Positions 1-11,636 of a stretch of DNA of 15,442 nucleotides are shown piece by piece. The translations under genes and the position numbers were made by a program. Under the pieces are notes generated by a model. The model saw only the letters and a program-made list of their open reading frames with translations, ran no database searches and was not told the DNA's origin. The DNA comes from Burkholderiales bacterium UBA954 (lineage in GTDB: Bacteria > Pseudomonadota > Gammaproteobacteria > Burkholderiales > Burkholderiaceae_A): NCBI GenBank assembly GCA_002293155.1, contig DBCQ01000053.1, positions 1 to 15,442 of the forward strand, read 5' to 3'. Numbering within the stretch: the stretch's first letter is position 1; every line of letters begins with the position of its first letter.

Positions 1-429
1 AGGCTCTATGAAGATCTACCCAAGGCTGAGATGGATGTCCGCGTTGAGTGGGCGCTGACCAAGACCGCGCTCTGGAATGAGGCCAAGGATAAACTCAATC
101 AAAGCGGGCTTGCGCTCTCGGGCGGTCAGCAGCAACGGCTCTGCATTGCACGGTCGGTTGCGGTGAAGCCTTCTGTAATTCTGCTCGATGAACCCACCTC
201 GGCCTTAGATCCGATCTCCACGGCCAAGGTTGAGGAGCTGGTGCACGAGCTTAAAACCGACTATACGGTGGCGATTGTTACCCACAACATGCAGCAGGCT
301 GCACGCGTTTCAGATTTCACTGCCTACATGTATATCGGTGAGATGGTGGAGTATGGCAAGACCGACGAGATCTTTATTAAGCCCAAAAAACAGGAAACCG
401 AGGATTACATCACTGGGCGTTTTGGTTGA
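1..429 (+). CDS. pstB: Phosphate ABC transporter ATP-binding protein PstB (5'-truncated by the window edge)
   Basis: This is the C-terminal 142 residues of the ATPase that powers high-affinity phosphate import by the PstSCAB complex at the inner membrane. The reading frame is open from base 1, so the gene starts outside the window; about 115 residues, including Walker A, should be missing compared with the usual length of about 255-260. Visible motifs in order are the ABC signature LSGGQQQR, Walker B in [12 protein letters not shown], and the H-loop VTHNMQQA. The C-terminus ([11 protein letters not shown], then ITGRFG) is typical of PstB. The stop codon is one base from the stop of the convergent phosphoribosyltransferase gene. 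In many proteobacteria phoU follows pstB directly; here phoU lies about 10.5 kb downstream. PstB family membership is near certain. Confidence 0.97.
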
Positions 430-3447: not shown

Positions 3448-4377
3448 TTAATCCGCACGGAAGGACTTCCCGAGGGATGCTGGCGAATTGATGCGAATCA
3501 TTTGTGCGTTTCTGGAAATTAGTACGAGTACCACAATGGTTGCGAGGTAGGGCAGTGCAGACAGAAGCTGGGCCGGCACATTGATCTGTAACGTAGAGGA
3601 TTGTACAAAGAGTTGGCTAATCAAGACACCGCCAAACAGATAAGCGCCAAGTAAGACTCTCCAGGGCCGCCAGGTTGCGAAGACCACCAGGGCGAGGGCG
3701 ATCCAGCCCTTGCCCGCAATCATCCCTTCGGTCCACATGGGTGTATAAAAAACCGACAAAAACCCACCACCAAGGCCTGCCATCGCACCACCAAAGAGCA
3801 CGGCAAGGTATCGGACGCGATTCACCGCAATACCCACTGCATGAGCCGCCACGGGGGACTCCCCAACCGCCTTGAGTACCAAGCCGCCCCGGCTCTTGGC
3901 TAAAAACCAGACGACCAGCCCAAAAATCACCCAGGTAAGGTACACCAAGGACTGTTGCTGAAATAACACCCGTCCAATAAGGGGAATGTCACTGAGAACC
4001 GGGATGGTCAGGGGCGGGGTCGCGGCAATCACACGGGCTTCAAAGGGCTTGCCGAGGAAGGCAGCAAGGCCAACACCAAATATCGCAACTGCCAGCCCCG
4101 TGGCGACCTGATTGGCCATGAGGTTGATGGTGATGAGGCCAAAAATGAAGGCGAGCAGTGCGCCGGCGAGGATCCCCGCGCAAAGCCCAAGCGCTGCCGA
4201 TCCACTCCAGTAGGCAATTACAAACGCGGCAACGGCGCCCACCGACATCATTCCCTCGGCACCGAGGTTCAGCATCCCTGCTTTCTCGCAGACCAGCTCG
4301 CCAATGGCCACTAAAACCAGTGGGGTGCCGGCGACAACCGTCGCAAAGCAGATCGCAGTGATTAGCTCGAGGCTCAT
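3448..4377 (-). CDS. Nucleoside-type ABC transporter permease, second subunit (NupQ/YufQ-like)
   Basis: This inner-membrane permease of 309 residues is almost entirely hydrophobic segments, with a start typical of the family: LVLVAIGELVCEKAGMLNLGAEGMMSVGA, here residues about 20-48. The conserved Glu-Lys-Ala-Gly and GAEGMM elements are those of BMP-type nucleoside and sugar importers (BPD_transp_2 family). The ATG overlaps the stop of the upstream permease as ATGA, and AGGGG (4383-4387) lies 5 bases upstream, so translation is probably coupled. Together with the preceding permease it should form the heterodimeric channel through which the purine passes. Substrate identity rests on the operon partners. 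Confidence 0.9.
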   Translation of the reverse strand: MSLELITAICFATVVAGTPLVLVAIGELVCEKAGMLNLGAEGMMSVGAVAAFVIAYWSGSAALGLCAGILAGALLAFIFGLITINLMANQVATGLAVAIFGVGLAAFLGKPFEARVIAATPPLTIPVLSDIPLIGRVLFQQQSLVYLTWVIFGLVVWFLAKSRGGLVLKAVGESPVAAHAVGIAVNRVRYLAVLFGGAMAGLGGGFLSVFYTPMWTEGMIAGKGWIALALVVFATWRPWRVLLGAYLFGGVLISQLFVQSSTLQINVPAQLLSALPYLATIVVLVLISRNAQMIRINSPASLGKSFRAD

Positions 4378-7403: not shown

Positions 7404-7421
7404 ATGTCATCGTTTTGTCAA
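7404..7421 (+). promoter_or_regulatory. Pho box (PhoB binding site) upstream of gap-arsJ
   Basis: The 18-mer ATGTCATCGTTTTGTCAA matches the PhoB consensus layout of two 7-base half-sites separated by 4 bases. Both TGTCA cores are exact and lie 11 bp apart (7405 and 7416). Overall 12 of 18 positions match the Escherichia coli consensus. The distance from its end to the -10 hexamer TATTCT is exactly 10 bp, as in the E. coli phoA and pstS promoters. It should place the arsenate pair under phosphate-starvation control; binding itself is inferred. Confidence 0.72.
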
Positions 7422-7440
7422 GAAACCGGCATATTCTTGA
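7418..7440. promoter_or_regulatory. Perfect 7-9-7 inverted repeat over the gap-arsJ promoter
   Basis: TCAAGAA (7418-7424) and TTCTTGA (7434-7440) are exact reverse complements separated by 9 bases. The repeat covers the second Pho half-site and the -10. It could be the operator of an arsenic-sensing repressor (ArsR family), but no arsR gene is in the window. Chance overlap with the Pho box is possible. Confidence 0.4.
7432..7437 (+). promoter_or_regulatory. -10 hexamer of the gap-arsJ promoter
   Basis: TATTCT matches TATAAT at four positions and lies 10 bp after the Pho box, which replaces the -35 in PhoB-activated promoters. Transcription would start near 7444, leaving a leader of about 60 bases to the GTG at 7505. 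Confidence 0.55.
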
Positions 7441-7504
7441 AACACGAAACAAAGTCCATGCTTGTTTATATCCGAGCCCAAATTCTACGAGAGAGGGATA
7501 CACC

Positions 7505-8548
7505 GTGCGAGTCGGTATTAACGGAATGGGCCGGATTGGCCGCCTGGCCCTCCGGGCCGCGTTTGGCGCGGCCAGTCGCCCCGATGAGGACCCCTATCGC
7601 TTAAATCGTCTTGATGTGGTGCACATCAACGAGTTAAAAGGCGGCATTGCGGCGACTGCCCACCTGCTTGAGTACGATAGTGTTCAGGGGCGGTGGCCTG
7701 CCGGTTTTGAATGCGAAGGCGAGAACACAATTCGCATCGATGGGCGTTCCGTGAAGTACACCGCCCATGGGTCACCAGCCGAGATTGCATGGGCCGATTC
7801 GGGAGTTGATCTGGTTTTAGAGTGCACGGGTAAGTTCCTCACTCCAGAGACCATTCAGGGCCACTTTGATCGCGGGGCTAAGCGGGTCATCGTTGCGGCA
7901 CCGGTAAAGGTGGGCAATGTTTTGAACATCGTCTTTGGGGTCAATCATGCGCTCTATGATCCCGCGGTCAATCGGCTCGTCACGGCTGCATCATGCACCA
8001 CAAACTGCCTTGCGCCAGTCGTGAAGGTTCTTCAAGAGTCCATTGGCATTCGGCACGGCCAGATCACAACCATTCATGACCCAACCAATACCAATCTCGT
8101 CGTGGACGCACCCCACAAAGACCTGCGTCGCGCGAGAAGCGCGATGCTGAGCCTCGCACCGACGACAACAGGCAGTGCAACAGCGATCGCATTGATTTAT
8201 CCCGAGCTAAAGGGCAAGCTCAATGGCCATGCGGTTCGCGCCCCTGTGCTCAACGCCTCGCTAACAGACTGTGTCTTTGAGCTCGCCCGCGAAACCACAG
8301 CGGAGGAGGTCAATGGGCTTTTTGCTCAGGCGGCCCGCGGTGGGCTGGCAGGGATCCTGGGCTATGAAACGAAGCCGCTCGTCAGCGCAGACTACGCGCG
8401 GGATACGCGCAGCGCCATCGTTGACGCTCTATCCACCATGGTGACGGATGGCACTTTGTTGAAGGTCTATGCCTGGTATGACAACGAGATGGGATACTCT
8501 TGTCGTATGGTTGATCTTGCGTGTTACATGGAATCCCGGGGTTTGTAG
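7505..8548 (+). CDS. gap: ArsJ-associated glyceraldehyde-3-phosphate dehydrogenase
   Basis: This 347-residue cytosolic dehydrogenase should use arsenate in place of phosphate to turn glyceraldehyde 3-phosphate plus NAD into the unstable 1-arseno-3-phosphoglycerate, the substrate of ArsJ. The N-terminal Rossmann motif [10 protein letters not shown] is at residues 4-13. The catalytic Cys164 is in [11 protein letters not shown], and the C-terminus has [25 protein letters not shown] at 40-47 and the arsJ gene right behind point to the ArsJ-associated subfamily rather than housekeeping GapA. The frame is open upstream to 7415, but homology begins at the GTG at 7505, which has AGGG (7494-7497) 7 bases before it. 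Residues about 21-36 form an insertion of roughly a dozen residues compared with the relatives I recall. Confidence 0.9.
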
Positions 8549-9801
8549 TGCAATCGGCGAATGCCGCATCCACTGGGCTTAGACATTACGCAGTTGTAAC
8601 ATCGGCTTATTGGGGGTTCACGCTCACCGATGGTGCCCTGCGGATGTTGGTGCTCTTGCACTTCTACCGCTTAGGTTACTCTCCGTTTACGCTTGCATTT
8701 CTCTTTCTTCTCTACGAGTTCGCCGGCATTATTGCCAACCTCATTGGGGGCTGGCTCGCAACCCGATTCGGCATCACGCGGATGCTGACTGTTGGCTTAA
8801 TCACTCAGATCTGCGGCTTTCTTTTGCTCTCGGCCTTATCGCCCGATTGGAGTGTTGCTCTATCTGTCGCCTGGGTTGTGCTTGCGCAGGGTGTCTGTGG
8901 CGTAGCCAAGGATTTGACCAAAACGGCCAGTAAGTCTGCGATCAAGATTACCTCCGGAGAGGCCTCGGGAAGGCTCTTTCATTGGGTTGCCTGGTTCACG
9001 GGCAGTAAAAATGCAATGAAGGGTATCGGATTTTTTCTGGGCGGCTTTATGCTTGACCAGATGGGATTTCGTGGCGCCCTGTGGAGTATGGCGGGGCTGC
9101 TCGGGCTCATCCTGATTGGGGTGGTGGCCAGCCTTCCGCCGATGATTGGAAAAAGTCGAGCCTCACGAAGTGTCCGAGAGTTATTCTCGAAGAGTAGGCC
9201 CATCAACCTATTGGCGGCTGCCCGAATCGGTTTATTTGGCGCGCGGGATGTCTGGTTTGTGGTTGGTGTGCCCGTGTTTCTCTATGCCTCGGGTTGGACG
9301 TTCACCATGGTGGGGGGATTTCTAGCGGCATGGACAATCGCTTATGGAGTTGTGCAGGCAATCGCTCCGCAGCTGGTTAAGCGCAGCAGTGATGGCTTGA
9401 GTCAAGAGGTACCGGCCGCTCGTTGGTGGTCGGCTGTCGCTGCGTTAATTCCAGTCGGTCTAGCGTTTGCTGTGGCGATGGAGCCGGCCCAACTCGAGTG
9501 GATTATTGTGGGCGGGCTTAGCCTCTTTGGAGTTGCATTCGCAGTGAACTCATCGGTTCATTCCTATCTCATTCTTGCGTATGCGGGCAGCGAAAAGGCG
9601 GCCGAGGATGTTGGGTTTTACTACGCTGCGAATGCAGCAGGGCGCTTTATCGGAACCCTGTTATCGGGGCTTCTTTATCAGTGGGGCGGCCTTGGTTATG
9701 CGCTGATGGGTTCGGCCGTGCTGTTAACGATATGCTGGAGTTTTACCCTTGCGTTGCCAGGCGCGCGGGTGGCACAGCCTGTCGTTAAGCGCTCGGAATA
9801 A
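8548..9801 (+). CDS. arsJ: Organoarsenical efflux MFS transporter ArsJ
   Basis: This 417-residue major facilitator protein with about 12 hydrophobic helices should export 1-arseno-3-phosphoglycerate across the inner membrane. Outside the cell the compound breaks down to arsenate, so the pair acts as an arsenate pump. The N-terminal block from HYAVVTSAYWGFTLTDGALR (about residues 13-32), followed by MLVLLHFYRLGYSP and FLFLLYEFAGI, is characteristic of ArsJ. Its start is inferred: the GTG at 8548 overlaps the gap stop by one base (TAGTG), giving tight coupling. An in-frame GTG at 8521 inside gap would add nine residues. Its last 17 bases overlap, tail to tail, the end of the ykgJ-like gene. Confidence 0.92.
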   Translation: MQSANAASTGLRHYAVVTSAYWGFTLTDGALRMLVLLHFYRLGYSPFTLAFLFLLYEFAGIIANLIGGWLATRFGITRMLTVGLITQICGFLLLSALSPDWSVALSVAWVVLAQGVCGVAKDLTKTASKSAIKITSGEASGRLFHWVAWFTGSKNAMKGIGFFLGGFMLDQMGFRGALWSMAGLLGLILIGVVASLPPMIGKSRASRSVRELFSKSRPINLLAAARIGLFGARDVWFVVGVPVFLYASGWTFTMVGGFLAAWTIAYGVVQAIAPQLVKRSSDGLSQEVPAARWWSAVAALIPVGLAFAVAMEPAQLEWIIVGGLSLFGVAFAVNSSVHSYLILAYAGSEKAAEDVGFYYAANAAGRFIGTLLSGLLYQWGGLGYALMGSAVLLTICWSFTLALPGARVAQPVVKRSE

Positions 9802-10211: not shown

Positions 10212-10886
10212 ATGCCGAACTCTGATCAGAACGCCTTGAAAATCGCGGTTGCGCGCGCCGCTGTGGCGGAGGTCGCGCAGGGGATGATTCTGGGTGTTGG
10301 CACGGGCTCGACAGTCGATTGCTTTATCGATGCGCTCGCCGAAGCCGGCGTGTCGCTAAAGGGGGCAATATCAAGCTCGGTTCGCAGCGCCAATCGGCTT
10401 GCGGCCCTGGGCTATCCCATCATGGAGCTTGATGATCTCGCTGGTCCAATCGATCTCTACATTGATGGCGCCGATGAGATTGATCCCAACCTCTGCATGA
10501 TCAAGGGGGGCGGTGCGGCGCTTACCCAAGAGAAAATTGTTGCCAGTGCGGCAAAGCGGTTTGTCTGTATCGTGGATTCCTCAAAGCAGGTGGAAACACT
10601 GGGCCGTTTCCCCCTTCCCATTGAGGTCATCGAGAAGGCTATTAAGCCGGTGACCTGGGCAATTCAGGCGATGGGTGGTGAGCCCAGGCGGCGCGCTGGG
10701 GTGTTAACGGATAACGGGCATCCGATTCTGGATGTCCTTGGCCTGGCGATCACTGATCCGGTCGCTCTAGAGCGCGCACTTAATCAGATTCCGGGGGTGG
10801 TCACCAATGGGATATTTGCGCTGCGGCGGGCGGATCTAGCCCTAGTTGCAACGCCACAAGGGGTCGTCCGCCTGCAACATAATTGA
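10212..10886 (+). CDS. rpiA: Ribose-5-phosphate isomerase A
   Basis: This 224-residue enzyme interconverts ribose 5-phosphate and ribulose 5-phosphate in the pentose phosphate pathway and so feeds PRPP synthesis. The phosphate-binding GTGST is at residues 30-34. DGADEID (85-91) and KGGGAALTQEK (98-108) supply the catalytic set: Asp85, Asp88, Lys98 and Glu107, each four positions beyond the E. coli counterparts. Length is close to the usual 219-230. No obvious Shine-Dalgarno precedes the ATG at 10212, which may be weakly translated or leaderless. phoU follows after 48 bp in the same direction. Confidence 0.96.
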   Translation: MPNSDQNALKIAVARAAVAEVAQGMILGVGTGSTVDCFIDALAEAGVSLKGAISSSVRSANRLAALGYPIMELDDLAGPIDLYIDGADEIDPNLCMIKGGGAALTQEKIVASAAKRFVCIVDSSKQVETLGRFPLPIEVIEKAIKPVTWAIQAMGGEPRRRAGVLTDNGHPILDVLGLAITDPVALERALNQIPGVVTNGIFALRRADLALVATPQGVVRLQHN

Positions 10887-10934
10887 AACACGACCGCTGT
10901 ACACTCAAGCATTCTCATTTTGCCGGGTCCTGCC

Positions 10935-11636
10935 ATGCTGACGCACACCTCAAAAGAATTTGATAAAGAACTCGAGGCAATTCGCACCAACGTTCTCGAG
11001 CTGGGCGGCCTCGTTGAAGGCATGATCAAAAGTGCAATTCAGGGCCTCGAGGAGGCTGATATCGCGCTTCTGAAGGATGTCCTTCAGCGGGAGAAACAGG
11101 TCAATCGTCTTGAAGTGGAGATCGATGATCAATGTAACCATATTATTGCCCGTCGTCAGCCCACTGCGTTTGATCTTCGATTCGTTCTAACCTGCATGAA
11201 GATGATTCGTGATCTCGAGCGTATCGGTGATGAGGCTGAGAAAATTGCCCGGATGGCGCTCTTCATTCACGAAAGTAATGCCCGGTTCACGCCCCGGATT
11301 GAGCTCTCGAGCATGTATGGTGTGGTGATGAAAATGATGCGGCAGTCTCTGGATGGGTTTGCCAGAAACGATTCGTCAAGCCTGCCCGATGTGATCCGCG
11401 AAGATATTAGCGTGGATGATCAGTTTAGAAACACGCTGCGGCTTTTGATCAGCTACATGATCGAGGATTCGCGAACCATTTCACGATCAATTGATCTACT
11501 GTTTATTGCCAAGGCGCTCGAGCGTATCGGCGACCATTCCAAGAACATGTCGGAGCACGTTGTGTATATGGTCAAGGGTAAAGATATCCGCCATCAGGAT
11601 ATTGACGACGCCGAAAAACAGGTTCAGGCCAGCTAA
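10935..11636 (+). CDS. phoU: Phosphate signalling complex protein PhoU
   Basis: This 233-residue all-helical peripheral protein links the Pst transporter to the PhoR kinase and keeps PhoB inactive when phosphate is plentiful. The two three-helix bundles each carry the family's metal-binding motif: DLERIGDEAEKIARMA in the first half and ALERIGDHSKNMSEHV in the second. I took the ATG at 10935, which gives the family-like N-terminus MLTHTSKEFDKEL. A TTG at 10920 would add five residues. It follows rpiA by 48 bp, so it may be co-transcribed or have its own promoter; no Pho box was seen before it. In many relatives it directly follows pstB. Confidence 0.95.
   Translation: MLTHTSKEFDKELEAIRTNVLELGGLVEGMIKSAIQGLEEADIALLKDVLQREKQVNRLEVEIDDQCNHIIARRQPTAFDLRFVLTCMKMIRDLERIGDEAEKIARMALFIHESNARFTPRIELSSMYGVVMKMMRQSLDGFARNDSSSLPDVIREDISVDDQFRNTLRLLISYMIEDSRTISRSIDLLFIAKALERIGDHSKNMSEHVVYMVKGKDIRHQDIDDAEKQVQAS

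Follow-up and report, generated by a model that had tools for sequence, protein, structure and literature searches.

Several described systems each resemble part of the arrangement reported here. In the V. cholerae gap-arsJ (var) system, a special glyceraldehyde-3-phosphate dehydrogenase (GAPDH) makes 1-arseno-3-phosphoglycerate and ArsJ exports it, as predicted for the locus examined here; unlike this locus, it is driven by arsenate from a single promoter before arsR that is repressed by ArsR, and PhoB does not occur in the available part of the report (PMC9601151). The cyanobacterium Nodularia spumigena CCY9414 carries an arsR-sphX-gap-arsJ cluster, described in a study of phosphate limitation, and there too gap and arsJ stand beside a phosphate gene (sphX, phosphate-binding protein). 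The RNA-seq log2 changes in the first two value columns were 1.57 and 2.41 for gap and 0.29 and 1.20 for arsJ, and most arsenate-related genes changed little according to the text (PMC9846622). Besides its phylum, this case differs from ours by the arsR within the cluster and by the absence of the term Pho box from the available portion of that paper (PMC9846622). In Halomonas HAL1, PhoB binds a Pho box at the arsenite oxidase genes aioBA under low phosphate, as established by EMSA and one-hybrid assays (PMC4563254). Common to both is an arsenic gene with a Pho box, bound by PhoB there and known from sequence here; the function is arsenite oxidation rather than arsenate efflux, and the aioB box occupies the antisense strand from -21 to -3 with 56% identity to the E. 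coli consensus (PMC4563254). Finally, Agrobacterium tumefaciens shows cross-control of pst1-pho1 by ArsR1 and PhoB1, where ars, aio and pst genes share genomic islands and the phosphate and arsenic regulators meet at promoters next to each other; in contrast to the arrangement below, ArsR1 represses pstS1/phoB1, the motifs lie mostly 100-150 nt upstream instead of being fused to a -10 element, and gap-arsJ is unmentioned in the sections available, arsJ having 0 occurrences in PMC7965956 and PMC3834237 (PMC7965956, PMC7533571, PMC3834237). Our searches of the open-licence literature revealed neither a Pho box described upstream of gap-arsJ nor the composite element presented below; among the matches listed, no paper combined arsJ with Pho box, and PMC9846622 was the only one to combine arsJ with PhoB.

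The window, i.e. the whole stretch of 15,442 nt that was analysed, is the entire contig C46 of the draft genome G000 (1.613 Mb in 72 contigs, 79% complete and hence without about 21%). It starts with the 3' end of pstB, followed on the opposite strand by hpt, guanine deaminase and a BMP-type ABC transporter, and continues with tRNA-Pro/Arg/His, gap, arsJ, a CxxCxxCC protein, rpiA, phoU, an iron-trafficking protein and a TRAP transporter. The features relevant to the promoter are as follows.

31..429, + strand: 3' end of pstB, truncated by the contig end
7306..7381, + strand: tRNA-His, final gene of the upstream tRNA-Pro/Arg/His cluster
7404..7421, + strand: Pho box with half-sites ATGTCAT and TTGTCAA (pattern, matrix, random model)
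7432..7437, + strand: -10 hexamer TATTCT, 10 nt past the box
7438..7504, + strand: gap leader, 67 nt, without ArsR-like operator
7505..8548, + strand: gap, ArsJ-associated glyceraldehyde-3-phosphate dehydrogenase, GTG start (family match)
8521..9801, + strand: arsJ, predicted MFS exporter of 1-arseno-3-phosphoglycerate (family match from residue 21; start uncertain)
10872..10905, + strand: second Pho-type site, score 18.7, ahead of phoU (matrix)
10920..11636, + strand: phoU (family match)

A preliminary description of this DNA had named the pair gap-arsJ, and both adjacent genes indeed encode proteins above the curated family cut-offs (NF033735, ArsJ-associated GAPDH, 530 bits for a cut-off of 450; NF033734, ArsJ, 523.5 for a cut-off of 400). 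The pstB and phoU genes that it placed in the same window are likewise there. The second Pho-type site overlaps the end of rpiA, and phoU is here separated from pstB by about 10.5 kb.

By definition, a Pho box comprises two direct repeats of 11 bp, each with a CTGTCAT-like heptamer (PMC4415409). The box of the window, ATGTCATCGTTTTGTCAA (7404-7421), contains two exact TGTCA cores at 7405-7409 and 7416-7420, 11 bp apart, with 7-bp half-sites separated by a 4-bp spacer, and TATTCT follows exactly 10 nt past the box, so that every position claimed beforehand for the cores, the spacer and the -10 element was confirmed. The same 10-nt distance between box and -10 is known from the E. coli phoA and pstS promoters and was observed directly in 25 of 30 pstS promoters of relatives. 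The window resembles these classical Pho-box promoters by its repeats ahead of the -10 and differs from them by the gene under control, an arsenate-efflux pair. Exact TGTCA-N6-TGTCA occurs at 4 sites in the whole 1.613-Mb assembly, and one mismatch yields 69 sites as compared to 40 for the backward pattern. When TAnnnT is required at the correct distance, the window site is the sole one without mismatch, and up to 2 mismatches give 25 assembly sites versus 14 in the backward control. A PhoB matrix spanning box, 10 nt and -10 was built from the 25 pstS promoters of relatives whose best box has xAxxxT exactly 10 nt downstream (25/30, a training set thus filtered on geometry), own pstS and all gap promoters being left out. 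With this matrix, the comparison with pstS proposed in the preliminary description gives 21.15 for the window site and 21.01 for own pstS. Only two sites of the window exceed 5, those at 7404 and 10872, and none of 8,000,000 Markov-random positions reached 21, a single one attaining 20. A chance match was rejected on the basis of the matrix score, the pattern counts against the backward control, the random model and the recurrence of the box before gap.

The genome encodes the cognate regulators, PhoB (TIGR02154, 350.9 for a cut-off of 296.2) and PhoR (TIGR02966, 430.4 for a cut-off of 334.2), by adjacent genes on contig C39. Scanning 155 kb of the genome (with overlaps) plus the 25 genome-wide pattern matches, rather than every base, returned further sites above 17 whose neighbours look like a Pho regulon. 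The site scoring 24.4 precedes a phosphonate-type HD gene and, next to it, a phnC-like ATPase (the two products, at 189 and 257 bits, fall just below their cut-offs of 215 and 266), and that scoring 21.0 precedes pstS. A glycosyltransferase gene (20.4) and a 206-aa gene (19.7) are divergently oriented and have a site each, and a ppk-like gene with a divergent ppx-like neighbour has one of 19.5. The others lie before phoU (18.7), before a metallophosphoesterase-glycosyltransferase pair that follows glmM (17.5) and before one unlabelled gene (17.1); the names plcP, agt, ppk, ppx and glmM are presumptive and given by resemblance. The metallophosphoesterase-glycosyltransferase pair, possibly involved in membrane-lipid remodelling, is preceded by three overlapping Pho-type dyads, i.e. 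four half-sites at 11-bp steps (L034, about 3547-3584; G000 C50:72046-72083). Two nearly identical copies of the pstS promoter, each with the gene upstream of it, lie at contig ends (C20:1-3062 and C50:74836-75018), the duplicate being probably an assembly or strain variant.

Conservation of the box was examined at 93 gap-arsJ loci, namely 80 from named genomes (the best 80 of at least 589) and 13 of relatives, of which 87 were evaluable once 6 without upstream DNA had been dropped. The gap starts were taken from alignment plus a whole-locus scan, since the longest open frames start too far upstream and undercount gap promoters; L083-L085, pieces of arsJ without a gap match, were dropped. In this sample of the best 80 of at least 589 plus the 13 relatives, a box scoring at least 13 is found at 46/87 loci and one scoring at least 10 at 48/87, while the random model predicts about 0.06 at a score of at least 12 across the 87 loci; L146 and L074 agree in length and promoter and most likely represent one contig, in which case 46/87 becomes 45/86. 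The same sample splits according to gene order: the box stands at 45 of the 61 loci with no ars gene abutting gap upstream (ars gene end within 200 bp) and at 1 of the 26 with one. By class, as assigned from record titles, it occurs at 37/51 non-alphaproteobacterial and 1/23 alphaproteobacterial loci among the best 80 of at least 589, in addition to 8/13 in the relatives. These 80 loci (the best of at least 589; 1.096 Mb) contain 70 sites scoring at least 13, of which 40 lie before gap (38 loci), the others including sites before pstS, ppk-like and ppx-like genes. The box is conserved before orthologous genes, though not universally: in the best 80 of at least 589, the 48 non-alphaproteobacterial loci where no ars gene abuts gap include 12 that do not reach a score of 13 (9 none, 3 weak), three Thauera being among these 12. 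A second sample of 23 loci, drawn from 399 genomes and possibly including species already in the first, had 19 evaluable members (L256, L257, L259 and L262 being unusable for want of a gap match or upstream DNA), 13 of which reach 10 (11 at least 13, 2 more at least 10) and 6 of which stay below.

Furthermore, many Burkholderiales gap promoters contain TTCRA-N6-TYGAA after the -10, the two elements overlapping by one base, the T that ends the -10 and begins the 16-mer. Several arsR-led operons have a 16-mer of the same type directly ahead of the start codon of arsR, and because of this position we read it as a probable ArsR operator. The resulting composite promoter of about 49 bp consists of Pho box, 10 nt and a -10 fused to the ArsR-like operator at fixed spacing. 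Across 97 loci (1.329 Mb) there are 74 perfect 16-mers, 31 of which have a box (here a core matching at least 8 of 10) within 120 nt upstream, versus 5 with the segment in backward reading. Among these 31, box and 16-mer are offset by 33 nt in 20 cases, by 34 in 4, by 36 in 3 (L073, L074, L146), by 44 in 2 and by other distances in 2. All four cases at 34 nt (L103, L126, L156, L159) are alphaproteobacterial arsR-led operons (arsR-arsC-gap-arsJ), in which the operator following the Pho-like box abuts the arsR start codon. Within the best 80 of at least 589 plus relatives, 30 of the 47 box-bearing promoters, window included, match the operator at 9 or more of 10 positions, arsR-led promoters with mixed right and wrong starts being left out of this count; arsR lies in the same locus in 23 of these 30 as opposed to 6 of the 17 others (Fisher p 0.011, without kinship correction). 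A search for the element as such, with up to 2 mismatches, in 399 genomes of the order gave 15 matches in 15 genomes against 3 backward. Eleven of the 15 precede gap, whose start lies 68-93 nt after the first base of the element, 1 precedes pstS and 3 lie elsewhere; arsJ occurs in 36 of the 399 genomes, so this strict form marks under a third of them.

Loss of the TGTCA cores in close relatives that keep gap-arsJ had been proposed as a test of PhoB control. In the sister genus (g2) the box is present with a score of at least 13 at 6 of the 8 loci whose upstream DNA is readable (L070, L071, L073, L074, L081, L082), which favours such control, but two are without it, L077 and L072, where gap-arsJ comes after arsR, arsC and arsH. 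In five sister-genus loci gap-arsJ directly precedes pstS-pstC-pstA-pstB (L070, L071, L073, L074, L077), four of them after glmM; L081 and L082, which end inside arsJ, are also located after glmM, and L083 has an arsJ piece ahead of pstS. There as well, pstS carries its own box. The two g3 loci (L079, L080) display AT-rich Pho-like sites (18.9 and 16.6), and no PstS was found in these two genomes by TIGR00975. In the window's own genus, pstSCAB is followed by the tRNA cluster, and none of six same-genus genomes has arsJ while 5/6 have Acr3, the reverse of G000. Three of these genomes had their tRNA cluster within the stretch examined: arsR-arsC-acr3 comes directly after tRNA-His in G001 and G005, and neither it nor gap-arsJ does in G002. 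The arsR-arsC-acr3 genes occupy the place of gap-arsJ (L203, 9911-11750 in G001; L204, 13239-15063 in G005), an arsenic slot beside pst. At the arsR promoter of G001, a box-like site (16.0) and an operator-like 16-mer (9/10) overlap, and at that of G005 only the 16-mer (9/10) is present. Shared descent with the sister genus was rejected, as the Gap+ArsJ tree (L078, L146 and short rows left out) groups the window with seven other betaproteobacterial rows and not with g2 (SH-aLRT 87, below the 95 mark); separate acquisition of gap-arsJ by the two lineages appears likely.

The preliminary description had opposed phosphate scarcity to arsenic as the signal. This fits the genome as assembled: the best operator-like 16-mer in the leader matches 6/10, which 193 of 200 shuffles equal; neither acr3 nor ArsB was found in the 79%-complete assembly, nor any other of the arsenic genes searched beyond gap-arsJ. 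Taken with a single ArsR/SmtB-family gene that passes no specific model, this leaves phosphate scarcity as the only input visible in this 79%-complete assembly. It does not extend to a general rule, many relatives holding both inputs. An ArsR-type repressor not seen or recognised here could nevertheless make arsenic the main signal, as in V. cholerae, and many relatives do have the operator at the gap promoter; the one ArsR/SmtB-family protein of the assembly (NF033788, 79.4 bits for a cut-off of 55) may be an arsenic sensor and passes the general metalloregulator model, but its best named families, TsoR and BigR, are below their cut-offs and no ars genes lie beside its gene, which together with the missing operator and arsenic genes makes arsenic unlikely as the main signal. 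Since the window's tree group mixes operator-bearing, operator-free and box-free promoters, it is plausible that the operator was lost here rather than never present.

Two other explanations bear on the box and on the pair itself. Transcripts of the tRNA-Pro/Arg/His operon might reach gap by read-through and leave little for the box to add: tRNA-His ends 123 nt ahead of gap on the same strand, and no terminator-like site was found in between. Yet in L070-L082 no tRNA lies directly upstream of gap and the box is present in 8/13, so we consider this unlikely, slightly more so than a hidden arsenic repressor. The pair could also serve phosphate-starved carbon metabolism as an alternative GAPDH with an exporter of a phosphorylated intermediate, in keeping with a promoter and an assembly so poor in arsenic features; but both proteins exceed arsenic-specific cut-offs, related pairs are mostly grouped with arsR, arsC or acr3 (best 80 of at least 589 plus 13 relatives), and two of the three same-genus genomes place arsenic genes after the same tRNA-His, which renders a metabolic role the most doubtful of the three.

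Comparison thus supports the earlier interpretation that PhoB controls gap-arsJ, on account of the box score, of the uneven distribution between loci without and with an abutting ars gene and of the encoded PhoB-PhoR pair. We consider, with a probability of about 0.8, that gap-arsJ is a member of the Pho regulon and that the window promoter is the phosphate-only form of the Burkholderiales composite promoter. When phosphate is scarce, PhoR would phosphorylate PhoB, which would bind 7404-7421 and recruit RNA polymerase to TATTCT in substitution for a -35 element. Arsenate leaking in through the induced Pst would then be converted by Gap into 1-arseno-3-phosphoglycerate for export by ArsJ, and efflux may be raised in advance, which may be of benefit. 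In relatives with the composite form, expression probably requires activation by PhoB as well as release from ArsR. Descriptions of arsenic defence usually have it induced by arsenic; here it would depend on the very nutrient signal that lets arsenate in.

The composite phosphate/arsenic promoter appears to be the larger finding. On balance, we favour the view that in Burkholderiales, and in at least four arsR-led operons of alphaproteobacteria, this promoter couples arsenate efflux to phosphate scavenging, acting as an AND gate that requires Pst import together with arsenic, and that in some lineages, including that of the window, the arsenic input is missing and the pair would be a standing purge of arsenate entering with phosphate. 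This might explain why bacteria living in low-phosphate waters retain gap-arsJ without the usual arsenic genes. The short element in which both signals meet is found before the same genes in different genera; it is a two-input promoter open to direct test and could help to recognise, as a sequence tag in metagenomes, arsenic genes under phosphate control. In three loci (L100, L106, L109), gap-arsJ-arsR-(arsC)-acr3-pstS-pstC-pstA-pstB are found on one strand behind a Pho/ArsR promoter.
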